Assembly (NCBI GenBank): GCA_016882195.1
Contig: VGLU01000001.1
Span: 38,001 to 102,000, forward strand
DNA length: 64,000 nucleotides
Source of the DNA: Thermoproteota archaeon
Lineage (GTDB): Archaea > Thermoproteota > Methanomethylicia > Methanomethylicales > Methanomethylicaceae
Direction of reading: 5' to 3'
Below are positions 22,649 to 38,719 of this stretch, piece by piece (position 1 is the first letter of the stretch; every line of letters begins with the position of its first letter). A program made the position numbers and the translations under genes. The notes under the pieces were generated by a model. The model was not told where the DNA came from. It made no database searches and saw only the letters and a program-made list of their open reading frames with translations.

Positions 22649-23509
22649 CTAGATCACCTTTGCTGATTTTTCGTTATTCGCCCTGCCCTCTATCAGGGAG
22701 AGGAGATCCTGCCGCATAAGTGGTCTGCTCCCGTCGCCGAGCACCCCGTCCTTCACCAGCATTTTGTACATCCCCACCACCTCGGGGGGCTTCAGCCCCG
22801 CCTCTTGGAGTAGCCCTTCATCGTAGAAGAGATCCCTTGGCGTGCCCTCAGCCAGCACAACACCCTTCTTGAGGATGTAGACCCTGTCAGATATCCTAGA
22901 GGCGAGATCCATGTCATGGGTGGAGATTACAACGCTCAGCCCAAGCTCGTCCCTTAGCTTAAGAAGAAGTTTCTCGACCTTCTCGGCGTTGACCGGGTCC
23001 AAATCCGATGTTGGCTCGTCCACCGCGACGATCTTGGGCTTCATGGCGATCACGCCGGCTATGGCAACCAGCCTCTTCTCGCCGCCGCTCAGGTAGTGGG
23101 GGATCTTGGTCTTCTCCGCGAAGCCCACCAAGTCGAGGGCCCACTCAGCCGCCTTCTTAGCCTCGGCGGGAGGCATTCCGGTATTTATCGGTCCGAACAT
23201 GACATCATCCATAACAGTGGGGGCGAAGAGCTGGCTGTCGGCGTCCTGGAAGACAAGACCAACAGACCTCCTGAGCTTCTCCGGGTTCTTCTTGTCAATG
23301 CGCTCGCCTTCCAACATAATTTCTCCTTCAGACGGGATCAGTATGCCGTTCAGGTGCTCCAGCAAGGTGGACTTGCCAGAACCGTTTGGACCACATACGC
23401 CCACTATCTCCTTCGGGAATACCTTGAAACAGAGGTCGTGTATGCCCACCGTGCCGTCGGAGTAGGTGTGGGAGAGGCAGTCTAGGTGCAATAAAGGTTC
23501 GGAACTCAT
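22649..23509 (-). CDS. cbiO: ECF nickel/cobalt transporter ATPase
   Basis: GPNGSGKSTL, LSGGEKR, VDEPTSDLDP. Confidence 0.88.
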   Translation of the reverse strand: MSSEPLLHLDCLSHTYSDGTVGIHDLCFKVFPKEIVGVCGPNGSGKSTLLEHLNGILIPSEGEIMLEGERIDKKNPEKLRRSVGLVFQDADSQLFAPTVMDDVMFGPINTGMPPAEAKKAAEWALDLVGFAEKTKIPHYLSGGEKRLVAIAGVIAMKPKIVAVDEPTSDLDPVNAEKVEKLLLKLRDELGLSVVISTHDMDLASRISDRVYILKKGVVLAEGTPRDLFYDEGLLQEAGLKPPEVVGMYKMLVKDGVLGDGSRPLMRQDLLSLIEGRANNEKSAKVI

Positions 23510-24315
23510 GGGATTATCCCCTGATACACGTAAGCTACAACAACAATCAGTACAGAAATCACCAACATGGCCCACCCCAGCGCAGATGGACTCCTAAGCC
23601 TCTCGTACGACCTGAGCTCCCCCGAGAAGCCCCTCGCCTCCATCGCCTTCCCGATCCTCTCGGCCTTGTCGAACGAGTAGACGACCCCGACCGCGAATAT
23701 CTTGGCGTAGAGTGAGCCCGCAGAGGTTATCCCCCTCCGCAGGCTTCCACCCCTTGCCCAAGCCGCCAGTAGAGCGGTCTCAAGCACCTCGAAGACGACG
23801 AAGACGAAGCGGAAGGTCAGCAGAAAGATTACATCGAAGGGCCTAGGGAATATCCTGTCTGCGAGGCCGGAGATCTCAGAGTACCTCGTGGACATGATTA
23901 ATGTGAGAGAGTAGTTCACCACCGCTAGGCCCCTGAGCAGGAGCTTCACCACGAGGAGTACGCCCATGTCAGTAATGGTGAATACGCCAGGAACGGCGAT
24001 GATAGGTCTTCCGGGCTGCGAGAAGATGAACAGGATGGAGATCGTCAGTATGAACAATACAGGAAACAGCGACCAGCCGAGCAGCTTCCTTAGCGGAAAC
24101 TTCCCCGAGATGTAGATCAACAAAGAGAGAACGTAGAGCGCTAACAGCAGAAGGGTGCTCTGTATTATCGTCGCCGCCACCACGAAGAGGAAGAGACCCA
24201 TCAACTTGACCCACGGACTCGCCCTGTTCAGCAGTCCCCCTCTCTCCGAGTAGTAGAGGATCGTTGCCAAGTTCGGGACATGCCCCCTCTCAAGACTCTT
24301 CAATTTTACTACCAC
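23506..24315 (-). CDS. cbiQ: ECF nickel/cobalt transporter T component
   Basis: CbiQ-like membrane protein with C-terminal AWARGGSLRRG and MEARGFSGELRSY motifs. Confidence 0.82.
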   Translation of the reverse strand: MVVKLKSLERGHVPNLATILYYSERGGLLNRASPWVKLMGLFLFVVAATIIQSTLLLLALYVLSLLIYISGKFPLRKLLGWSLFPVLFILTISILFIFSQPGRPIIAVPGVFTITDMGVLLVVKLLLRGLAVVNYSLTLIMSTRYSEISGLADRIFPRPFDVIFLLTFRFVFVVFEVLETALLAAWARGGSLRRGITSAGSLYAKIFAVGVVYSFDKAERIGKAMEARGFSGELRSYERLRSPSALGWAMLVISVLIVVVAYVYQGIIP

Positions 24316-24949
24316 CCAAGAGTTCAGGTTTTACCTTTGCCAGGAAGGCAACCAGAAACCCGGTAACTATCGACTCAACAACCGCCGCGACCTCGTTTAT
24401 TAGTGCCAGAAGGAGGAGGTTCTGCAGCTCCTCTACTCCTTCCACGCCCTGTATGCCGGAAACGGTTATTGCGCCGACCATCAGCGCGTTTGAGACCGTC
24501 AGGGCGATCAGCGTCGCGACAAGCGCGGCTATGAAGGGGAGGACCCTGCGCCTGCGGAATAGAAACACAAAGATCGAGAAGGCAACAACGATCTCTACCA
24601 TGTTTATCAGGAAGTTGAGCCCGATGGGACCCCAGCCACCGTGACCTACAGCCGAGGAGAGTATGTTAATGATGACAGCGGATACCGAGCCGATGATGGG
24701 CCCGACCAGAATTCCCAGCATTGGCGTGAAGTTGAGGTGGAGCCCTCCCAATACCGGAACCTCCACCTGAAAGATCACGAAGGCGAGGGCGGTGGCTACG
24801 CCTGCGACCGAGAGCGTCTTGACCTCAATGGACTTACCAGTCCTCCTGAAGTAGAAGGCGACAATCCCAAGCAGGGCGAGCGAGATTAACCAGTAGAATG
24901 CCACCCACGTGATGGGCAGAACACCGTCGGGCAGGTGAATGTGGGCCAT
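24290..24949 (-). CDS. cbiM: ECF nickel/cobalt transporter S component
   Basis: N-terminal MAHIHLPDGVLP metal-site motif, multi-TM. Confidence 0.85.
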   Translation of the reverse strand: MAHIHLPDGVLPITWVAFYWLISLALLGIVAFYFRRTGKSIEVKTLSVAGVATALAFVIFQVEVPVLGGLHLNFTPMLGILVGPIIGSVSAVIINILSSAVGHGGWGPIGLNFLINMVEIVVAFSIFVFLFRRRRVLPFIAALVATLIALTVSNALMVGAITVSGIQGVEGVEELQNLLLLALINEVAAVVESIVTGFLVAFLAKVKPELLGGSKIEES

Positions 24950-28170: not shown

Positions 28171-28257
28171 GCCCCCTCTGCCTGTTCAGAAATTTTACAT
28201 GAACGATTAAAAAATGTTAATATATACTATGCGGAAATTTATCTACTGGTGTTTATC

Positions 28258-29187
28258 ATGGAGCTGGCCGAGGATCCCCTAACCAACAAGAAAGTAGAGG
28301 TCGTCAGGTACTCCAACCTGGGCGTCGGCGTTCTGAGGAGGGGGAAGATCAGGGACATCTACGACCTCGGTGAGGAGCTCCTGATATACCACACGGACAG
28401 GGTCTCAGCCTTCGACGTCGTTCTCCCGACACTGATCCCGAGGAAGGGCGAGTCCCTGCAGAAATTGTCGGTTTACTGGATGGAGAGGAGCAGGAGGGTC
28501 TTCCCGAACCATCTAATATCTGTCGAGGACAGCCGGACCATACGGGTCAGGAAGGCGAGGAGGGTCGACATCGAGTGGGTCGTTAGGAAGTACCTCTACG
28601 GTTCGCTCTGGAGGGCGTACAGCAAGGGGGAACGCAAGCTCTACGGGATAAAGTTCCCGGAGGGGCTGAGTATGGCGGAGGAACTTCCCGCCCCAGTAAT
28701 AACTCCCACAACAAAGGCGGACGTGGGCCACGACGAGGAGATCGCCAGAAAACTCGCTGTGGAGAGGGGCATAGTCGACAAGAGCACGTGGGACGAGCTG
28801 GAGGAAGCAACTTTAAAGCTGTACGAGTTCTACGAGGCGGAGGCGAGGCAGAGGGGTATAATCATACCCGATTTCAAGATCGAGTTCGGTTGGCACGGTA
28901 AAGAGTTGATACAGATAGATGAGCCCCCGACGCACGACTCTGCTAGGATGTGGGCGCGCAGGTACTACAGGCCAGGTGAGGTGCAGGAGAAGCACTGCCT
29001 TGACAAGGAATTCTTGAGGGAGTGTCTCAGGAGGCTCGATTTTGCTGGAGAGGGCGAGCCGCCGATATTACCCAGAGGGGTCGTCGGGGAGGTTGTCAAG
29101 CGTTGTGTGGGTGCATACAGGGTGCTCGCGGAGGGCGCCAGCGTTGAGGAGCTGAGGCTTGCCGGTGTAGACGATATTTTTAGATAA
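28258..29187 (+). CDS. purC: Phosphoribosylaminoimidazole-succinocarboxamide synthase
   Basis: RGKIRDIYDLGEELLIYHTDRVSAFDVVL; DEPPTHDSARMW. Confidence 0.92.
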   Translation: MELAEDPLTNKKVEVVRYSNLGVGVLRRGKIRDIYDLGEELLIYHTDRVSAFDVVLPTLIPRKGESLQKLSVYWMERSRRVFPNHLISVEDSRTIRVRKARRVDIEWVVRKYLYGSLWRAYSKGERKLYGIKFPEGLSMAEELPAPVITPTTKADVGHDEEIARKLAVERGIVDKSTWDELEEATLKLYEFYEAEARQRGIIIPDFKIEFGWHGKELIQIDEPPTHDSARMWARRYYRPGEVQEKHCLDKEFLRECLRRLDFAGEGEPPILPRGVVGEVVKRCVGAYRVLAEGASVEELRLAGVDDIFR

Positions 29188-29258
29188 ACGTATAAAAAAA
29201 CCTTAAAAAGCCCCCTATAAATATACATGTTTATAGTAACGGTCTGGGGGGCACTCTT

Positions 29259-30734
29259 ATGGTGGGGGAGAGGTGTGGGGTATTCGGAGCTAAATGCTTC
29301 GACGGCAGCGATGCCTTCGTAAACCTCTACTGGGGACTAGTGGCGCAGAACCACAGAGGACACGAGTCCTACGGGTTCCTCACACACTCCGAGGGGCTGA
29401 GGAGGTACGTGGACCTCGGCCTCGTCCCGAGGATAGAGAGGCAGGAGTTCCTCCGCTGGAACATACTCCTGCCGGGCAATGTCGGGATAGCCCACGTCAG
29501 GTATGGGACCTCCGGACACAGGGACGTTTACGCTCATCTGAAGGATGCACAGCCCATAGTCGTCTCCCGCGGGAAGGAGAAGCTGGGCTTGGCGTACAAC
29601 GGCAACCTGGTGAACATCGGGTGGCTGAAGGAGTTTGTAGCCAAGAGAAACGGTAGGCTCAAGACGACCTCTGATACCGAGCTCCTCAGCAGGTACCTCC
29701 TCGACAATTTGGACAGGGGCATAATAGATAGCGTAAAGTTATGCATGGAGGATGTGGAGGGTGCATTCTCCGTGGTGGGACTGAGGTCGAGCGGGGAGTT
29801 CTTTGCGTTCAGGGATCCGCTCGGGATGAGGCCGCTCTGCCTCGGACAGAGCAGGGACGGCAGCATCAAGGCGGTCTCCTCTGAAACTGTCGGGCTCGAC
29901 ATTAACGATTTCCAGGTCTTGAGCGAGGTGGAGCCGGGCGAGGCTCTGATCTTCACGAAGGACGGGATGGAGAGGCAGAGGCTCGTCAGGAACGGCGGGA
30001 GGGCATTCTGCGGCTTCGAGTTCTCCTACTTCGCGAGACCTGACTCGATGATCAACGGCAAGTACGTTTACAGGGTGAGGGAGGAGTTCGGCAGGAACCT
30101 AGGGCGGAGGTACCAGGACGTAGTCAGGGACTCTGACCTCATTATATCCATACCGGAGACGGCCGACGACGCGGCGTACGGGCTGCATGAGGAGACTGGT
30201 CTGAGGTGGGAGAGGACCCTGAGGAGGCACAGGTTCGTGACCCACAGGGCGTTCATACTGGAGGTCGACGAGAGGACCTCGACCATCGACAGGAAGATCA
30301 ACGTTCCGGATGGTGGTCTGAAGGGGAAGAGGGCCATAGTCGTCGAGGACAGCATCGTCAGGGGCGACACGACGAGGACGACAGTAAAGAAGCTGAGGGA
30401 GGCTGGCGCGGAGAAGGTCTACCTCTTCGTCACCTTCCCCAGGATAACGCATCCCTGCTTCTACGGGATAGATATGGCGACCTTCACGGAGCTCATCGGG
30501 TTCTACTTCAACGAAGAGGGGATAGCCAAGGAGATAGGAGCCGACGCGGTCTGCTACCAGCCCCTCGAGGACTTCGTTAAGGCGACCGGCATGCGTAAGG
30601 AGGACCTCTGCATGGCTTGCACCACCGGGAGCTATCCGACGGAGCTCGCGCAGAGGATAGCGGACAAGGTCAGGTCCACCGTCGACAAATCGGACAGGAG
30701 CAGGGTCTACGAACGACCGAACTTGGAGGTGTGA
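29259..30734 (+). CDS. purF: Amidophosphoribosyltransferase 1 (intact glutaminase)
   Basis: Cys nucleophile after a short propeptide (MVGER-CGVFG), HVRYGTSG, YNGNLVN, TSDTELL, VVEDSIVRGDTT; candidate 4Fe-4S Cys ligands (FCGFEF, HPCFYG, CMAC). Confidence 0.92.
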   Translation: MVGERCGVFGAKCFDGSDAFVNLYWGLVAQNHRGHESYGFLTHSEGLRRYVDLGLVPRIERQEFLRWNILLPGNVGIAHVRYGTSGHRDVYAHLKDAQPIVVSRGKEKLGLAYNGNLVNIGWLKEFVAKRNGRLKTTSDTELLSRYLLDNLDRGIIDSVKLCMEDVEGAFSVVGLRSSGEFFAFRDPLGMRPLCLGQSRDGSIKAVSSETVGLDINDFQVLSEVEPGEALIFTKDGMERQRLVRNGGRAFCGFEFSYFARPDSMINGKYVYRVREEFGRNLGRRYQDVVRDSDLIISIPETADDAAYGLHEETGLRWERTLRRHRFVTHRAFILEVDERTSTIDRKINVPDGGLKGKRAIVVEDSIVRGDTTRTTVKKLREAGAEKVYLFVTFPRITHPCFYGIDMATFTELIGFYFNEEGIAKEIGADAVCYQPLEDFVKATGMRKEDLCMACTTGSYPTELAQRIADKVRSTVDKSDRSRVYERPNLEV

Positions 30735-30736
30735 GG

Positions 30737-32047
30737 ATGGCAGGGATCTTGGGGATATACCTGTTCGACAACAGATGGAACGCTTACAACTTTGGGGTCT
30801 TCGGGCTCATGGCACTCCAGCACAGGGGTCAAGAAACGGCAGGCTTCGAACTCTTTGGTGACGATCGCAATAAGGTGGCGGGCAAGGGCCTGGTGGAGCA
30901 GGTATTGGCCTCGGCGAATACGAAGGGGCACATCTGCGTAGGAGCGGTCTCTCCGTATCCAGCAGAGGACGCCGAGATACAGCCGATCTCGCTGAACGGC
31001 AAGGTCTCCGCTGCTATAGACGGGAAAATACTGAAGGTGGACGGCTACCAGTGGAACGGCTCAATTTCATACGAGGAGAACCTTAGGAGGGCTTTTTCAG
31101 AGCAGGTAAAGGGCAGCAACGATCTTGACGGCCTGAAGGGCTTCTTCGGCAGGTGCAGGGGCGGCTTCTCCTACGTAGCGGTCAACGAGAATAGGGATAT
31201 GGTAGCAGGCAGGGGGGCTATGGGGGTGAAGCCCCTCGTCTTGGGCAAGATGGGGTTCGACGGAGGGATAGTCGCCTCGGAGAGCTGCGTCATGGACATC
31301 ATCGGGGAGAGGGTTCCCATCAGCCCAGCGGAGAACATCGAGCCAGGAGAGGTGAGGGTCTTCACGCCTCTCTCGGCACACTCGGAGCAGGGCGCCACAT
31401 CAAAGAGGAGGGCGTACTGTAGCTTCGAGTACGTTTACCTCGCTAGGCCGGACTCTTACATCAACGACGTTCCAGTGTACAGGGTCAGGAGGAGCATAGG
31501 GAAGAAGCTCGTGGAGGAGGGCTACGTGGACGCCGACGTTGTTATAGGCGTGCCCGAGACCGCGATACCGTTCGCCATGGCACACTCCAACGAGACCGGG
31601 ATACCAGTGGAGAAGGGCTTTGAGCTGACGGGGAGAAGGGTGAGGAGCGCCATGAAGCCGAACCAGTTCGAGAGGCTTAAGGGGGTCCAGCTGAAGCTCA
31701 ATGTGATAAGCGAGGCGGTTAAGGGTAAGAGGGTCGTCCTCATCGATGACAGCGTTGTGAGAGGGAATACGCTGGCAAACATAGTCTACCTGATGAAGGA
31801 GAAGGGGGCAAAGGAGATCCACGTCAGGATAGGCAGCCCACACATAGTGTCGCACTGCCCATTCGGGGTCGAGGTCCCGCCAGAGGACGAGCTGATCGGA
31901 AAGCACCTCCCTGAGGATAAGATAGCGGAGGTCGTGGGCGCGGACTCGTTCAAGTACCTCAGCATTGAAGGGCTAATCGAGGCCGTTGGCATGAGCAGGA
32001 GGGACCTCTGCCTTGGCTGTTTCAACGGCCATTACCCGGAGGTGTGA
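30737..32047 (+). CDS. purF: Amidophosphoribosyltransferase paralog 2, degenerate glutaminase site
   Basis: PurF-like throughout (LQHRGQETAGF, YLARPDSYI, LIDDSVVRGNT, CLGCFNGHYP) but starts MAGILGIYL without the catalytic Cys. Confidence 0.9.
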   Translation: MAGILGIYLFDNRWNAYNFGVFGLMALQHRGQETAGFELFGDDRNKVAGKGLVEQVLASANTKGHICVGAVSPYPAEDAEIQPISLNGKVSAAIDGKILKVDGYQWNGSISYEENLRRAFSEQVKGSNDLDGLKGFFGRCRGGFSYVAVNENRDMVAGRGAMGVKPLVLGKMGFDGGIVASESCVMDIIGERVPISPAENIEPGEVRVFTPLSAHSEQGATSKRRAYCSFEYVYLARPDSYINDVPVYRVRRSIGKKLVEEGYVDADVVIGVPETAIPFAMAHSNETGIPVEKGFELTGRRVRSAMKPNQFERLKGVQLKLNVISEAVKGKRVVLIDDSVVRGNTLANIVYLMKEKGAKEIHVRIGSPHIVSHCPFGVEVPPEDELIGKHLPEDKIAEVVGADSFKYLSIEGLIEAVGMSRRDLCLGCFNGHYPEV

Positions 32048-32051
32048 CGAA

Positions 32052-33530
32052 ATGAAAGTTCTCCTAGTCGGGGGAGCCGGCAGGGAGCACGCGATAGCGG
32101 CCGCCTTCGCGAGGAGCGGGCACGAGCCGAGGCTCTACTGCCTATCGGACCTGACGAACCCAGGCATAAAGGGGATCGTGAAGAAAAGCGGCGGGGAGTA
32201 CTACCTCGGAAACATAAACGACCCTGAGGGCGTGATAAAGGCCGCCAAGAAGTCCGGGGCAGATTTCGTCTTCGTCGGACCCGAGGAGCCGAACTTCCAC
32301 GGAGTGCCGGACAGGCTCGAGGATGGCGGAATACCCTGCATCGGGGCGAACAGGGCGGTCTCGGAGCTGGAGATGTCCAAGGCAAGCATGAGGGACCTCC
32401 AGTGGAAGTACAAGATTCCGGGGAGGCTCTGGTACAAGAAGTTCAAGACCTTCGAGGAGGCTGTTCCATACATCGAGGAGTATGCGGACAGCGTCGCGCT
32501 CAAGCCGGCGAGGCAGGCGGGGGGGAAGGGAGTAAAAGTGATAGAGGACTTCCAGGTCTACCTGCAGGAGGACAAGAGGAAGGTCAAGAAGGAGCACGCC
32601 GAGTCAATTGTCAGGGAGTACATGAAGGGCTACGACGATATCGACTACAAGCTGCTCATAGAGGAGAGGGTCTGGGGTCCGGAGTACACCGTCCACTGCT
32701 TCACGGATGGGAGTACGGTCGTGCCCATGCCTGCGGTTCAGGACAACAAGCACGCCTTCGACGGCGACCTGGGGCTGGAGACCGGTGGGATGGGCTCCAT
32801 ATCCTGTGGCATGAACCTCAGGTGGGGTGTGGATGACGGGAGGGCAATCCTCACGGACGAGGAGTACCTAAAGTCCGTGGAGATAGTCAGGATGATGATA
32901 GACGCGATACAGACGGAGACGGGCGAGAAGTACCACGGTGTGGTCGCTGGGCAGATGATGCTCACCTCGGTCTGGGGACCCACGGTCATAGAGATGTACT
33001 CGAGGCTGGGGGACCCGGAGGCGGGCAACGTGCTCTCGGTGCTGAAGAGTGACATAGTGGACATATGCGAGGCCATCATCGGCGAGAGGCTCAATACAAT
33101 CAAGGCGGAGTTCGAGGACAAGGCTGTCGTTGTTAAGGCTGTCTGCCCCGAGGGGTACCCCAACAGAAGGGACATTGCGAGCGGGCATCCGGTTAAGATC
33201 AAGGGGAACGGGGACGGAATCCTCTGGGCGTCGGCGGACATCAAGGATGAAAGGGTGTTCAGCGGTGGCTCAAGGGTCGTGGAGTGCCTCGGCGTTGGGG
33301 AGAGCGTACCGGAGGCGAGCAGGAGGGCTGAAAAACTTACGGAGAAGGTCTCGCTCGAGGACGGGTGGAAGCTCTTCCACAGAAGGGACATTGGGTCGGA
33401 GAAGTCCTTGGAGAGGAGGATAGCGCTGGCGAACATGGCGCGTGAGATCTACCAATACAGGGAGAGGAGGGGGCTCCTCGGAAAGAGGATGATATGGATA
33501 CCGGGTAAAGGGTTGGTGGAGGTCGGTTGA
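32052..33530 (+). CDS. purD: Phosphoribosylamine-glycine ligase
   Basis: MKVLLVGGAGREHAIA, VGPEEP, KPARQAGGKGV, LETGGMGS, RLGDPEAGNVL. Confidence 0.9.
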   Translation: MKVLLVGGAGREHAIAAAFARSGHEPRLYCLSDLTNPGIKGIVKKSGGEYYLGNINDPEGVIKAAKKSGADFVFVGPEEPNFHGVPDRLEDGGIPCIGANRAVSELEMSKASMRDLQWKYKIPGRLWYKKFKTFEEAVPYIEEYADSVALKPARQAGGKGVKVIEDFQVYLQEDKRKVKKEHAESIVREYMKGYDDIDYKLLIEERVWGPEYTVHCFTDGSTVVPMPAVQDNKHAFDGDLGLETGGMGSISCGMNLRWGVDDGRAILTDEEYLKSVEIVRMMIDAIQTETGEKYHGVVAGQMMLTSVWGPTVIEMYSRLGDPEAGNVLSVLKSDIVDICEAIIGERLNTIKAEFEDKAVVVKAVCPEGYPNRRDIASGHPVKIKGNGDGILWASADIKDERVFSGGSRVVECLGVGESVPEASRRAEKLTEKVSLEDGWKLFHRRDIGSEKSLERRIALANMAREIYQYRERRGLLGKRMIWIPGKGLVEVG

Positions 33531-33531
33531 T

Positions 33532-34908
33532 ATGGTCTATAAGATGACGGAGGAAGAGAGAAGGGATCTGTTGGATAAGATAGGATCCTACAAGAAGGAG
33601 TTCGAGGGGAGGCTAAGTCCACTCGACCCGCTCGACCCTGAGAGGCCGGCGGTCTTCATCTCCGTCGGTGGAGGGGAGCTGGGCGACCTGGCGGTCACGG
33701 CGGCGAAGGGGCAGTACGGCGGGGCGGGCGGCGGGGTGAGGACGGTCGCCTTTGATAGGTATAACGGGTTCCCTGCTCAGGACGCGGCCGACGCGTCCGA
33801 GGTCTTCGACATGAAGAACGGAGACCTTTTGGAGAGGTACATAAAGAAGTACGTGCCCGATCCCTCCAAGCCACATGCCATATACATGGAGGTTGAGATG
33901 ATCGACACCCACAGGGCATACAAGCTCGGGATGGACGAGGGCTACAAGGTGATGTCCACACCCTACGGCCCCTTGGTCTGCATGGACAGGCACGCCACCA
34001 AGCTGATGTTCGACAGGCTCAGGCTGGAGAGGGCAGACTGGGCATACGCCAACAACGACAAAGAGGTGCACAGGATTGCCAAGGACTTCGGTCTGCCCGT
34101 GATAGTGAAGCCCGTGATGACCTCCAGCGGCCACGGCACCTCCATAGTGAAGACCGGAAAGGAGCTTGAGGAGGCATACGCCCACGCCGTGGAGCACGCC
34201 AGGGGGGTGGGCGACGAGGTCGTCGTAGAGAGGTTCCTGCCGGGGCTGAAAACCATGGGCACCGAGATCACGCAGATAGTGGTGAGGCACTTCAATGAGC
34301 ACGGGAAGATCGTGAACTCCTTCGTTCCGCCCATAGAGCACAGGAGGCCCGGCGCGACCTACCACGAGAGCTGGTTGCCCTCCGCCATATCTGAGGGGGC
34401 GGCGGAGAGGTGCAAGGCGGACGCCGGGCGCATTGCCGACTTCATGGGAGGGATAGGGGTCTATGCGGTGGAGCAGTTCGTCCTTGGCGACGAGGTCTAC
34501 AACAACGAGGTGGCGAACAGGCCCCACGACACGGGCATGGTCACGAGGTGGATGCTGAACATGGATGAGGGGGCATTGCAACTCACGTCCACCCTGGGTC
34601 TGCAGATTAACCCGTTCCATCTGGAGATCGCAAGGCAGGATGTCTACGGGGTTGCCCACGTGGTCCTTGCGCCGTTGGAGATAAAGAAGGAGGTGAAGGT
34701 TCTGGGCTGGAACGCGAGCAAGCTGAACCACTTCCAGACCAAGGGCGTGAGGGGCGACTTCTGGTACTTCGGCAAGCCGACGGCGTACGCAGGAAGGAGG
34801 ATGGGTATGGCGGCGGCATTCCAGCCCGACCTTGAGAAGGCAAGGAGAAACGCGGAGATCATCGCCCACCTCGCCGAGGGGTGCATAGAGTACGGGGGGA
34901 GGGTCTGA
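33532..34908 (+). CDS. purT: Formate-dependent GAR transformylase, PurT-like (divergent)
   Basis: ATP-grasp; VGGGELG, VAFDRYNGFPAQDAADAS, KPVMTSSGHGTS, NRPHDTGMVT. Confidence 0.8.
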   Translation: MVYKMTEEERRDLLDKIGSYKKEFEGRLSPLDPLDPERPAVFISVGGGELGDLAVTAAKGQYGGAGGGVRTVAFDRYNGFPAQDAADASEVFDMKNGDLLERYIKKYVPDPSKPHAIYMEVEMIDTHRAYKLGMDEGYKVMSTPYGPLVCMDRHATKLMFDRLRLERADWAYANNDKEVHRIAKDFGLPVIVKPVMTSSGHGTSIVKTGKELEEAYAHAVEHARGVGDEVVVERFLPGLKTMGTEITQIVVRHFNEHGKIVNSFVPPIEHRRPGATYHESWLPSAISEGAAERCKADAGRIADFMGGIGVYAVEQFVLGDEVYNNEVANRPHDTGMVTRWMLNMDEGALQLTSTLGLQINPFHLEIARQDVYGVAHVVLAPLEIKKEVKVLGWNASKLNHFQTKGVRGDFWYFGKPTAYAGRRMGMAAAFQPDLEKARRNAEIIAHLAEGCIEYGGRV

Positions 34909-35342
34909 TGCCAAAGGTGGCTGTGGTCATAGGGAGCAGGTCGGACGCCAAGGCGGGCAATGAGGTCGTGGGTGTGCTCAAGGAGTACGGCGTGGAGTGC
35001 GACTACAGGGTCATCTCAGCGCACAGGAGTCCGGATGAGCTGGACTCGTTCGTGAAGACTACCGACGCAGAGGTCTTCATAGCCGTTGCAGGTCTCTCGG
35101 CGGCGTTACCAGGCGTTATAGCCTCGAAGACGGTCAGACCGGTCATAGGAGTCCCCATGAACGTGAAGCTTGAGGGCTTGGACGCCTTTCTGTCCATGGC
35201 ACAGATGCCGCCAGGGGTTCCTGTTGCCACCGTTGGCGTTGACAACTCGAAGAACGCCGCCCTTCTCGCCGTTGAGATATTGGCGATGAAGTACCCCGAG
35301 CTGAGGGGGAGGCTTGAGGAGGGCAGGAGGAGACGGAGATGA
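34908..35342 (+). CDS. purE: N5-CAIR mutase / AIR carboxylase
   Basis: VIGSRSDAK...YRVISAHRSPDEL; GLSAALPGVIAS; GVPMNVKLEGLDAFLSMAQMPPGVPVATVG. Confidence 0.92.
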   Translation: MPKVAVVIGSRSDAKAGNEVVGVLKEYGVECDYRVISAHRSPDELDSFVKTTDAEVFIAVAGLSAALPGVIASKTVRPVIGVPMNVKLEGLDAFLSMAQMPPGVPVATVGVDNSKNAALLAVEILAMKYPELRGRLEEGRRRRR

Positions 35343-35611
35343 AGGTAAAGGTCGAGGTGAGGCTGAAGCCAGGACACTTCGATCCAGAGGGCGACATCAC
35401 CGCAAAGTCCCTCAGGGACTTGGGCTTCCGCGTGAAAGGCGTGGAGGTCAGCAAGGTCTACACCTTGGATCTGGAGGCGAGGGACGCGGAGGATGGCGTG
35501 AGGCTCACAAAGGACATGTGCAGGAAGCTTCTGGCCAACCCGACCAAGGACAACTTTTCGGTAGAGGTGCTCCCGGGTGAAGAGCGGACTGTTGAGAAGG
35601 GCAAGCGATAA
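35339..35611 (+). CDS. purS: FGAM synthase subunit PurS
   Basis: MKVKVEVRLKPGHFDPEGDITAKSLRDLGF; between purE and purL. Confidence 0.88.
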   Translation: MKVKVEVRLKPGHFDPEGDITAKSLRDLGFRVKGVEVSKVYTLDLEARDAEDGVRLTKDMCRKLLANPTKDNFSVEVLPGEERTVEKGKR

Positions 35612-37928
35612 GCTCAGCCTGTTCACCGTGAACCTCTCTGCTACCGATGATAAGGATCTGGTCGAGATCAGCAAGTCCATGGGCCTCAGCCTCAGCTTGG
35701 ACGAGATGAGGTATCTTAAAGGTTACTTCAAGACACCTCCAACCGACGTGGAGTTGCAGAGCCTCGGTCAGACATGGTCGGAGCACTGCATCCACAAGAC
35801 CTTCAAGGGCGATATCAGGACGGAGAATAGGGTCGTCAGGGGACTGCTGAAGAACTACATAGCCAGGGCGACGAGGGATCTGAAGAAGCCATGGTGCATC
35901 TCCGTCTTCGAGGACAACGCTGGCATCGTGGACTTTGACGACGGATACGTGGTGGCTGCCAAGGTGGAGACTCACAACCACCCCTCGGCTGTGGAGCCCT
36001 TCGGCGGTGCCGCAACCGGCGTGGGGGGCGTCATAAGAGACATCCTCGGAGTATGGGGCGAGCCCGTTGCCAACACGGATGTGCTCTGCTTCGGACCCCT
36101 CGATATTCGCCATGAGGAGCTACCGCTAGGCGTGAGGCACCCCAAGTACATCTACAAGGGTGTGGTGGCGGGGGTGGGCGCCTACGGCAACAACATGGGG
36201 ATCCCCACCGTGTCAGGAGGGATACTCTTCGATAAAGGTTACACGGGCAACGTGATAGTCTACTGCGGCTGCATCGGGGTGCTTCCCAAGGATCTATACA
36301 TCAAAAACACTAGGGAGGGCGATTACGCGGTGATGGCTGGCGGAAAGACGGGGAGGGACGGGATCCACGGGGTGACCTTCGCCTCAGCAGATCTCCCGGA
36401 GGGCTCTGAGGAGCTGAGGTCGGCCGTGCAGATACCTAACCCGGTGGTGGAGGAGAGGCTGAAAAGGGCCATCCTGAGGATAAGGGACGGGAGGCTCGCC
36501 TCAGGCGTGACCGACCTGGGCGGGGGCGGGATATCCTGCGCCGCCGGCGAGATGGCCCACAGGTCGGGCTTGGGTCTGGACGTGAACCTTGACGTGGTCC
36601 ACCTCAAGGAGGCGAACCTGGCACCGTGGGAGATCTGGGTCTCCGAGTCGCAGGAGAGGATGCTAGTCTCGGTGCCCGAGGGTAACGTCGAGAAGGTCCT
36701 TGAGATATTCAAGGAGGAGGACATAGAGGCGTGCGTCCTCGGGAGGTTCAACAGGAGCGGAAGGATCAAGGTCACGTTGCACGGCGAGGTGGTCTGCAAT
36801 CTGGACCTCGACTTTCTGTACAGCCCGCCCAAGGTCACTAGGAAGGCTGCGCAGGTGATAATCCCTTCAGCTAGGTACAGGCTGGATGAGCCGAGGGATC
36901 TGGCAGAGGAGCTGCTCACCCTCTTAGCAGACCCCAACGTTAGGAGCCGGGAGGACGTCATAAGGACCTATGACCATGAGGTGAGGGGCTGCACGGCGAT
37001 AAAGCCGCTGCAGGGCGAGGAGGGCGGGCCCAACGACGCGGCAGTGATAAAGCCCCTGAAGGACTCGTGGATGGGGCTCGTGATCTCCTGCGGCATAAAT
37101 CCCTTCTACCCCGACCCCTACTGGATGGCGGCGGCCTCCATAGAGGAGGCGGTGAGGAACAACGCCTCGGTGGGCGGGAGGAGGGTGGCGATCCTGGACA
37201 ACTTCGTCTGGGGGAATCCCGAGCGCGAGGAGAGGATGGGCTCACTGTTAAGGGCGGTGGAGGCCTGCTACGACCTCTCAACAGCGCTGGACGTGCCCTT
37301 CATATCGGGCAAGGACAGCCTCTACAACGAGTCCCCGCTGGGACCGGTCAGGCCGACGCTCCTGATCACCGGCGTGGGTATAATCCCGGACCTTAGGAGG
37401 GCAATCACTCTGGACCTCAAGAGGGAGGGCAACCCGATTTACCTCATCGGGCTTACTAAGGACGAAACCGGCGGATCTGCGTATTTCAGGTCGAAGGGAA
37501 TCGCGGGAGGTGCTTGTCCCAAAATTGACGCAAAGGTCTCCAAGAGGACGATTGATACGCTCATCAATGCCATGGACGGGGGCATGGTCATGGCGTGCCA
37601 CGATCTCTCCGAGGGAGGGCTCGGGGTCGCGGCGGCGGAGATGGTTATAGCCTCGGATGGACTCGGTCTCGCCATCGACCTGAGGCGGGCACCTTCAGCG
37701 GTAGGGAGGAGCGACATTATTCTCTTCTCAGAGTCTGCCTCGAGGTTCTTGGTGGAGGTCGAGAGAGGTCACGCCAAGGGCTTTGAGAATCTGTTCAAGG
37801 GGCTACCCCACAGAGAGGTCGGAGAAGTGGAGGGTGGGAGGGGGGCAGGGCTCAGACTGCATGACCTGAAGGGCAGGGAGTTGGTGCTGGGTTCCTCTGA
37901 GATGAGGAGGGCGTGGAGGGGCTATTGA
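35577..37928 (+). CDS. purL: FGAM synthase subunit PurL (start approximate)
   Basis: LQSLGQTWSEHCIHKTF, KVETHNHPSAVEPFGGAATGVGGVIRD, DLGGGGISCA, HDLSEGGLGVAAAEM. Confidence 0.93.
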   Translation: MKSGLLRRASDKLSLFTVNLSATDDKDLVEISKSMGLSLSLDEMRYLKGYFKTPPTDVELQSLGQTWSEHCIHKTFKGDIRTENRVVRGLLKNYIARATRDLKKPWCISVFEDNAGIVDFDDGYVVAAKVETHNHPSAVEPFGGAATGVGGVIRDILGVWGEPVANTDVLCFGPLDIRHEELPLGVRHPKYIYKGVVAGVGAYGNNMGIPTVSGGILFDKGYTGNVIVYCGCIGVLPKDLYIKNTREGDYAVMAGGKTGRDGIHGVTFASADLPEGSEELRSAVQIPNPVVEERLKRAILRIRDGRLASGVTDLGGGGISCAAGEMAHRSGLGLDVNLDVVHLKEANLAPWEIWVSESQERMLVSVPEGNVEKVLEIFKEEDIEACVLGRFNRSGRIKVTLHGEVVCNLDLDFLYSPPKVTRKAAQVIIPSARYRLDEPRDLAEELLTLLADPNVRSREDVIRTYDHEVRGCTAIKPLQGEEGGPNDAAVIKPLKDSWMGLVISCGINPFYPDPYWMAAASIEEAVRNNASVGGRRVAILDNFVWGNPEREERMGSLLRAVEACYDLSTALDVPFISGKDSLYNESPLGPVRPTLLITGVGIIPDLRRAITLDLKREGNPIYLIGLTKDETGGSAYFRSKGIAGGACPKIDAKVSKRTIDTLINAMDGGMVMACHDLSEGGLGVAAAEMVIASDGLGLAIDLRRAPSAVGRSDIILFSESASRFLVEVERGHAKGFENLFKGLPHREVGEVEGGRGAGLRLHDLKGRELVLGSSEMRRAWRGY

Positions 37929-38719
37929 TGAGGCTGGAGAAGGCGAGGGCGTGCGTCCTGAGGGTCGGCGGCACGAACTGCGACCTGGAGGTGAAGGTCG
38001 CCCTCGAGGAGCTAGGACTGCAGACAGAGATACTGCACATGAACCAGCTGAAGAAGAGAAGGTTGTCGGATTACCACATGCTCGTCTTCCCTGGCGGCTT
38101 CTCGTATGGCGACTACGTCAGGGCAGGCGCGATATGGGGGAGGCAGGTCATTACAAAGTTCAGGCGCGACCTTGAGGCCTTCGTGAACGAGGAAAAGCTC
38201 GTGATGGGCATCTGCAATGGGTTCCAGGTGCTGGTGGAGGCTGGGCTGCTGCCGGGCAATGGGGTATCTGGCGTTCCCACAGCCACCCTAGCAAACAACT
38301 CCTCCGCCAAGTACGAGTGCAGGTGGATCCGCCTCAGGGTGGATGGGAAGAGGACGCCCTTCACCAAGATCATGAAGGTCGGCGAGGTGGTCAGGATACC
38401 CATCGGTCACGGCGAGGGGAGGTTCCTGCTCCCGTCCGAGGGCGCCCTCAAGGAACTGATAAAGGAGGGGCAGGTGGTGTTCAGGTACGCCCTTCCGGAC
38501 GGCAAACCAGCGGAGGGCGCATACCCGCACAACCCCAACGGCGCGGTCTACGACATCGCGGGGATCTGCAACAAGAAAGGAAACGTGATGGGGATGATGC
38601 CCCACCCTGAGAGGGCCTTCTTTGGCTGGCAGACACCGGTTTGGGGGGCGGAGCCGCCGGAGCACGGAGACGGCAGGAAGATCTTCGAGGGAGCCGTCGA
38701 GTACCTGAAGAGGTACTGA
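37928..38719 (+). CDS. purQ: FGAM synthase subunit PurQ (glutaminase)
   Basis: VLRVGGTNCDLE, FPGGFSYGDYVRAGAI, MGICNGFQVLVEAGLLPG, MMPHPERA. Confidence 0.93.
   Translation: MRLEKARACVLRVGGTNCDLEVKVALEELGLQTEILHMNQLKKRRLSDYHMLVFPGGFSYGDYVRAGAIWGRQVITKFRRDLEAFVNEEKLVMGICNGFQVLVEAGLLPGNGVSGVPTATLANNSSAKYECRWIRLRVDGKRTPFTKIMKVGEVVRIPIGHGEGRFLLPSEGALKELIKEGQVVFRYALPDGKPAEGAYPHNPNGAVYDIAGICNKKGNVMGMMPHPERAFFGWQTPVWGAEPPEHGDGRKIFEGAVEYLKRY

Follow-up and report, generated by a model that had tools for sequence, protein, structure and literature searches.

A glutaminase-dead PurF paralogue and the tailed PurD inherited with it in an archaeal purine operon

The route by which phosphoribosylamine (PRA) passes from PurF to PurD is an old question, above all in hot-spring archaea, and it is a question because PRA is so short-lived, lasting only seconds at 37 °C. 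A purine operon in the 64,000-nucleotide stretch analysed here (the window, from contig VGLU01000001.1) bears on it in an unusual way: a complete PurF (PurF1) is followed by a second PurF homologue (PurF2) with a dismantled glutaminase site, which in turn is followed by purD. What does such a protein do between these two neighbours?

The operon reads purC-purF1-purF2-purD-purT-purE-purS-purL-purQ (Table 1), with two bases between the genes of PurF1 and PurF2, four between those of PurF2 and PurD, and a GGAGGTG motif ahead of both PurF2 and PurD. The true start of PurF2 is the ATG at 30737; the list of open reading frames gave a longer version from a TTG at 30617. The host genome is archaeal (1.45 Mb, 97% complete) and, since it carries the gene for methyl-coenzyme M reductase (mcrA), its owner is probably a methanogen; this gene, the size of the genome and the relatives point to Methanomethylicia (Verstraetearchaeota). 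In family f13, which belongs to another class (loci L116, L117, L118), PurC, PurF1, PurF2, PurD and PurL are 63 to 75% identical to the products of window positions 28249-37928, and PurF2 and PurD of other families within the same class as the window reach only about 50 to 58% identity to the window's; these f13 identities suggest that the operon was passed between lineages as one block. Two genomes of the window's family (G005, G010) and one of the same order (G022), each 90 to 92% complete, gave no PurF or PurD match; these mcrA-bearing archaea may depend on purines from outside. Elsewhere in the window, two adjoining membrane proteins on the minus strand (23506-24949) resemble, by eye, the Q and M components of an ECF transporter for cobalt or nickel.

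Table 1. Positions in the window of the purine genes and of the PurF and PurD features discussed in the text
Feature	Position	Strand	Basis or remark
PurC	28249..29187	+	same operon as PurF1 and PurF2
PurF1, amidophosphoribosyltransferase, 491 aa	29259..30734	+	complete glutaminase and PRPP sites
Nucleophile Cys codon of PurF1 (residue 6, mature Cys1)	29274..29276	+	alignment to B. subtilis Cys1
Ribosome-binding site GGAGGTG for PurF2	30725..30731	+	within the end of purF1; sequence
PurF2 (PurF'), 436 aa	30737..32047	+	PurF homologue; glutaminase site lost, PRTase domain intact
Ala codon replacing that of the catalytic Cys, PurF2	30740..30742	+	homologue alignment
Stretch with the four Fe-S-type cysteines of PurF2 (C228, C374, C425, C428)	31418..32020	+	
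PRPP flexible-loop region of PurF2, residues 300-322	31634..31702	+	strictly conserved among PurF2
PRPP loop of PurF2, LIDDSVVRGNT	31739..31771	+	DDS and loop Gly in 50/50 homologues
Ribosome-binding site GGAGGTG for PurD	32038..32044	+	within the end of purF2; sequence
PurD-A, GAR synthetase of the type accompanying PurF2, 492 aa	32052..33530	+	start ATG at 32052
C-terminal stretch of PurD-A, residues 446-492	33387..33527	+	conserved tail RxxYxxRxxxGxxG..W.P
PurT, PurE, PurS, PurL, PurQ (remainder of operon)	33532..38719	+	

Active sites of the two PurF proteins

The alignment of PurF1 with B. subtilis PurF (1ao0; phmmer, E = 7e-79) spans the whole protein. As the first-pass annotation had proposed, its class II amidotransferase site is whole (Cys nucleophile behind a five-residue leader, HVRYGTSG, YNGN and SDTE), and so is its PRPP site (VVEDSIVRG plus the equivalents of R311 and K328); all four Fe-S cysteines are present too. 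The score of PurF1 on TIGR01134 (320.6 bits) lies under the 350-bit equivalog cut-off, a shortfall that is not decisive because 1 of 14 control genomes also falls short (13 pass). Among the PurF1 partners of PurF2, Cys1, R72, N102 and D127 were kept in 48/48 and the PRPP loop read DDS or EDS in all 48. The Glu in the PRPP loop of the window's PurF1 (D345E), which had been set against the Asp of PurF2, is real but amounts to no defect or reciprocal loss: the same residue occurs in 7 of 27 PurFs whose genomes lack PurF2, and a reciprocal PurF1 defect was ruled out on that ground. In the tree, the closest relatives of this PurF1 are PurFs acting alone in other families.

PurF2 matched B. subtilis PurF 1gph (E = 3e-71) but has lost Cys1 and the glutamine-binding residues. 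It begins MAGILG, with Ala for Cys1, has VGAVSPYPAE and AIDGK at the other glutaminase motifs, and has no SDTE, so that the dismantled site described at first reading stands in the alignment to 1gph. The loss is general: a usable Cys1 was found in 0/50 PurF2 homologues, nearly all of them have lost the HxRY Arg and the NGN Asn, and in 8/8 family groups PurF2 has a glutaminase domain 17 to 32 residues shorter than its PurF1 counterpart.

The PRTase side is retained. The PRPP loop (LIDDSVVRGNT) and the candidate Fe-S cysteines (YCSFEY, HCPFGV, CLGC) are both in place, again as first read, and the four cysteines align with C236, C382, C437 and C440 of B. subtilis; in the PurF2 clade the last three are found in 50/50 sequences and C236 in 48/50. 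In B. subtilis numbering, R245, D247, R311, K328 and G351, together with DDS, are likewise invariant in all 50, and in five of eight family groups PurF2 has the better conserved PRTase domain of the two proteins. The flexible loop differs, with xTGxxV replacing the KNRYVG of the typical form KNRYVGRTFI, and Thr or Ser replaces R350 in 18/50. An AlphaFold2 model of PurF2 (mean pLDDT 87) had a single low-confidence stretch, residues 298-320, which is the PRPP flexible loop, and gave TM-scores of 0.85 to 0.87 against PurF structures (Foldseek). The PRPP loop reads DDSxVTG or its Ser variant, not DDSVVRG, in 18/50 PurF2 (families f16, f22, f24, f27, f28 [G080] and f38).

Ancestry and selection

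The 50 PurF2 sequences, all without Cys1, formed a single clade in the whole-protein tree (SH support 1.0), and PurF2 remained one clade when the PRTase domain alone was used (SH-aLRT 100). The clade covers about 19 families of the phylum, takes in Sulfolobus-like and Thermoproteus-like genomes, and stands apart from all PurF1 and from bacterial and euryarchaeal PurF. The two proteins of the window had been called tandem paralogs; they are adjacent, but they are only about 30% identical and their split is ancient, and a recent tandem duplication was ruled out by the separation of the PurF2 clade from all PurF1 in both trees. A scan of named genomes with a PurF2 profile returned no PurF2, its matches being overwhelmed by ordinary bacterial PurF; the bacterial loci thus collected were reused as outgroups and as alignment rows for structure prediction.

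PurF2 is under strong purifying selection. Across seven close genome pairs its dN/dS was 0.007 to 0.084, lowest in the PRTase domain (at most 0.048), far from the values near 1 that the first-pass annotation had named as the mark of a decaying gene.

A second kind of Cys-less PurF was met in family f56. In five of its genomes, G284 (L286), G298 (L287), G302 (L272), G296 (L273) and G292 (L274), the only PurF found (PurF-Q) has Gln or Lys for the catalytic Cys and has lost HxRY, NGN and other glutamine-site motifs, but its PRTase site is canonical; all five also have PurL and a PurD without the tail. Judged from these sequences, such organisms may make purines from ammonia only, and the case suggests by analogy that a Cys-less PurF can carry the PRA-forming step. 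One tree made PurF-Q the sister of PurF2 (SH 0.94), but with the PRTase domain alone PurF-Q fell outside the PurF2 clade, so its glutaminase site was probably lost separately.

Co-inheritance of PurF2 with a tailed PurD

The PurD of the window scores 330 bits on TIGR00877 (cut-off 288) and belongs to a type, PurD-A, that runs about 35 residues past ordinary PurD with the pattern RxxYxxRxxxGxxG..W.P. The tail was found in 46/48 PurD-A, the exceptions being confined to f33, a family with dispersed genes and a short PurD tail; it was found in 0/28 PurD-B and is missing from every PurD examined in genomes free of PurF2. Six PurD-A found later were also tailed, and the PurDs of their PurF2-free relatives were tailless. 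The tail was modelled, with moderate confidence, as a helix (residues 450-472) and a short hairpin. PurD-A further has Glu243 (in the NTGGMG motif) and Tyr316 (in EFNAR), with Asn at both places in all 28 PurD-B; we presume that residue 316 may lie at the Mg-ATP site, as in ATP-grasp enzymes.

The distribution of the two proteins was surveyed in 250 genomes, each at least 90% complete. A window-like PurD (E = 6e-93 or better) was present in 70 of the 71 genomes with two PurF matches, the exception (G007) having a fragmented assembly in which PurF2 sits at the end of a contig. In two genomes (G033, G039) PurF2 and PurD-A are present and a contig end truncates PurF1; G187 has one PurF but lacks PurD, and G108 gave no PurF match and only part of a PurD-A, where a contig begins. 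PurD-A occurred in 0/97 of the remaining one-PurF genomes, among which representatives of most families, not all, were read residue by residue; the best PurD match there was 9e-68 (G208) and the next 1e-38. Beside PurF2, PurD was about 40 to 75% identical to the window's, whereas in single-PurF genomes the PurD located by synteny was only about 25 to 36% identical, and the PurD-A of PurF2-bearing genomes formed one clade (support 0.96).

The association also held as a prediction. In the class to which most single-PurF families belong, the presence of PurF2 was predicted beforehand from scattered PurD-A and confirmed in ten genomes, and three PurD-B genomes of the same families had no PurF2, as predicted (G271, with PurD at a contig edge, was left out of the tally). 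Within one genus (g130), four genomes (G281, G299, G301, G279) read PurF1-PurF2-PurD-A and a fifth (G283) reads PurF1-PurD-B, all at intact loci; the PurF1s are 81 to 83% identical with or without PurF2, and the PurDs 28 to 32%. PurF1 can therefore do without PurF2, and PurF2 and PurD-A appear and disappear as a pair. Over well-supported branches of the PurF1 tree, the type of PurD followed PurF2 in 7/7 independent pairs (p = 0.016). Mirror-tree correlations were highest for PurF2 with PurD (r = 0.81), against 0.79 for PurF1 with PurD and 0.76 for PurF1 with PurF2, differences too small to lean on.

Gene order gives a similar picture, with variation. PurF2 lies by PurD with PurF1 6 to 7 kb off in G080, and with PurF1 about 5 to 8 kb off in four of the five f16 genomes looked at; in G095 PurD is 3 kb from PurF2 and PurF1 about 960 kb off. 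In f27 it is PurF1 that adjoins PurF2, PurD being 2 to 3 kb away, and in f33 all three genes are dispersed. The coupling of PurF2 to PurD-A, as co-inheritance and usual adjacency, is thus well supported, and it is this constant companion that the earlier interpretation had missed. It is also worth noting that joint transfer of operon neighbours can give co-inheritance without contact between the products.

Possible roles of PurF2 and known systems

The reading that we favour, and hold with about even confidence, is that PurF2 is an ancient PurF' paralogue, glutaminase-dead and PRPP-competent, which acts as a PRA synthase, or at least a PRPP-binding subunit, and works as a unit with PurD-A. Most likely its PRTase domain would convert PRPP to PRA with ammonia, whether free or released from PurF1, and would deliver the unstable product to PurD-A through a putative physical contact, the PurD-A tail being a candidate docking element. 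Catalysis by PurF2, with ammonia as the presumed nitrogen source, is not assured because the flexible loop is non-canonical and R350 is replaced in more than a third of the sequences. PurF1 alone, moreover, seems able to make PRA, and in f33 the three genes lie apart and the PurD tail is reduced; both points count against this explanation. A stricter form of it, possible but held only tentatively, makes PurF2 and PurD-A a dedicated complex in which PRA would be formed without glutamine hydrolysis and handed over directly, docked by the tail; if true, the pair would be the missing coupling factor of the first two purine steps in thermophilic archaea. Transfer of PRA from PurF to PurD is thought to use transient contact, and in Aquifex the coupling of the two enzymes was too weak in vitro, so that another protein or a small molecule is perhaps needed (PMC3261824).

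Rather unlikely, though the strongest of the rivals, is a non-catalytic regulatory or scaffold role, the PRTase fold of PurF2 binding PRPP or purine nucleotides and controlling PurF1 or PurD-A. Pseudo-enzyme paralogues act so elsewhere; PurF1 is complete, PurF2 without PurF1 was seen in no genome except contig-edge cases, and a conserved PRPP loop next to an altered flexible loop and a lost R350 would suit such a role. The invariant K328, R311 and DDS, in the slowest-evolving domain, nevertheless exceed the needs of a nucleotide-binding shell. The second option of the first-pass annotation, an ammonia-dependent or regulatory PurF2, is compatible with these results.

We regard as improbable a PurF1-PurF2 hetero-oligomer in which PurF1 would hydrolyse glutamine and PurF2 make PRA. 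This division of labour was the obligate arrangement first suggested for the locus, and it finds some footing outside the window family: f16 and f27 PurF1 have a shortened flexible loop and no K328, PurF1 of the Sulfolobus-like f24 loses the KNRY residues of that loop, and PurF1 adjoins PurF2 in most paired genomes. Against it, PurF1 of the window family keeps its whole PRPP site, D345E also occurs in unpaired PurFs, the closest PurF1 relatives outside paired lineages work as sole PurF, and the g130 PurF1s are 81 to 83% identical in either setting; an obligate partnership is therefore unsupported.

More doubtful still is that PurF2 phosphoribosylates another acceptor or serves another pathway, with its place in the operon serving expression only. 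The altered flexible loop, the PurF2-typical residues P286, F287, T306 and Q326, and the Glu243 and Tyr316 of PurD-A, where every other PurD examined has Asn, would fit such a change of substrate; the strict link to PurD-A and purine operons, and a fold and PRPP site as in PurF, speak against it. That PurF2 is a decaying duplicate without function, as the lost glutaminase site might suggest, has a negligible chance, being contradicted by the low dN/dS and by PRTase residues invariant in 50 sequences and kept over about 19 families.

The favoured reading, a PurF' working with PurD-A, builds on an earlier description that the first-pass annotation had also missed. PurF' itself is already known: it was named in Crenarchaeota by Brown et al. 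in 2011, who suggested an ammonia-dependent enzyme, and in their account it has no Cys nucleophile (often Ala or Val), forms its own cluster, lies near purF and further purine genes and occurs once per genome beside a Cys-containing PurF; Cys1 mutants of E. coli PurF still use ammonia (PMC3261824). The PurF and PurD sections of that paper contain no PurD-A link, tail or selection data, and no later paper on PurF' was found in the literature searched. A PurF2 inherited with a tailed PurD offers a concrete candidate for the way in which PRA reaches PurD. Two points were not found described in the literature searched and appear new: PurF' occurs in methanogens of the window's class and in many families without cultured members, and, more importantly, it is coupled to a tailed PurD.

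Set beside known systems, PurF2 shares its fold and PRPP loop with the PurF of B. subtilis (1gph, 1ao0) and E. coli (1ecf), and its four Fe-S cysteines are of the B. subtilis type; unlike these enzymes, it has no glutaminase site and its flexible loop has a sequence of its own. It resembles PurF-Q of f56 in being Cys-less, in the loss of HxRY and NGN and in the retained PRTase site, but PurF-Q is the only PurF found in its genomes and is accompanied by a tailless PurD. The neighbour of PurF2 is a GAR synthetase by its TIGR00877 score and differs from ordinary PurD in the extra C-terminal tail and in the N-to-E and N-to-Y changes. PurF2 resembles the crenarchaeal PurF' in the loss of Cys, the separate cluster and the place beside purF and purine genes (PMC3261824), whereas it is found here in a probable methanogen with mcrA and in many further families of the phylum.
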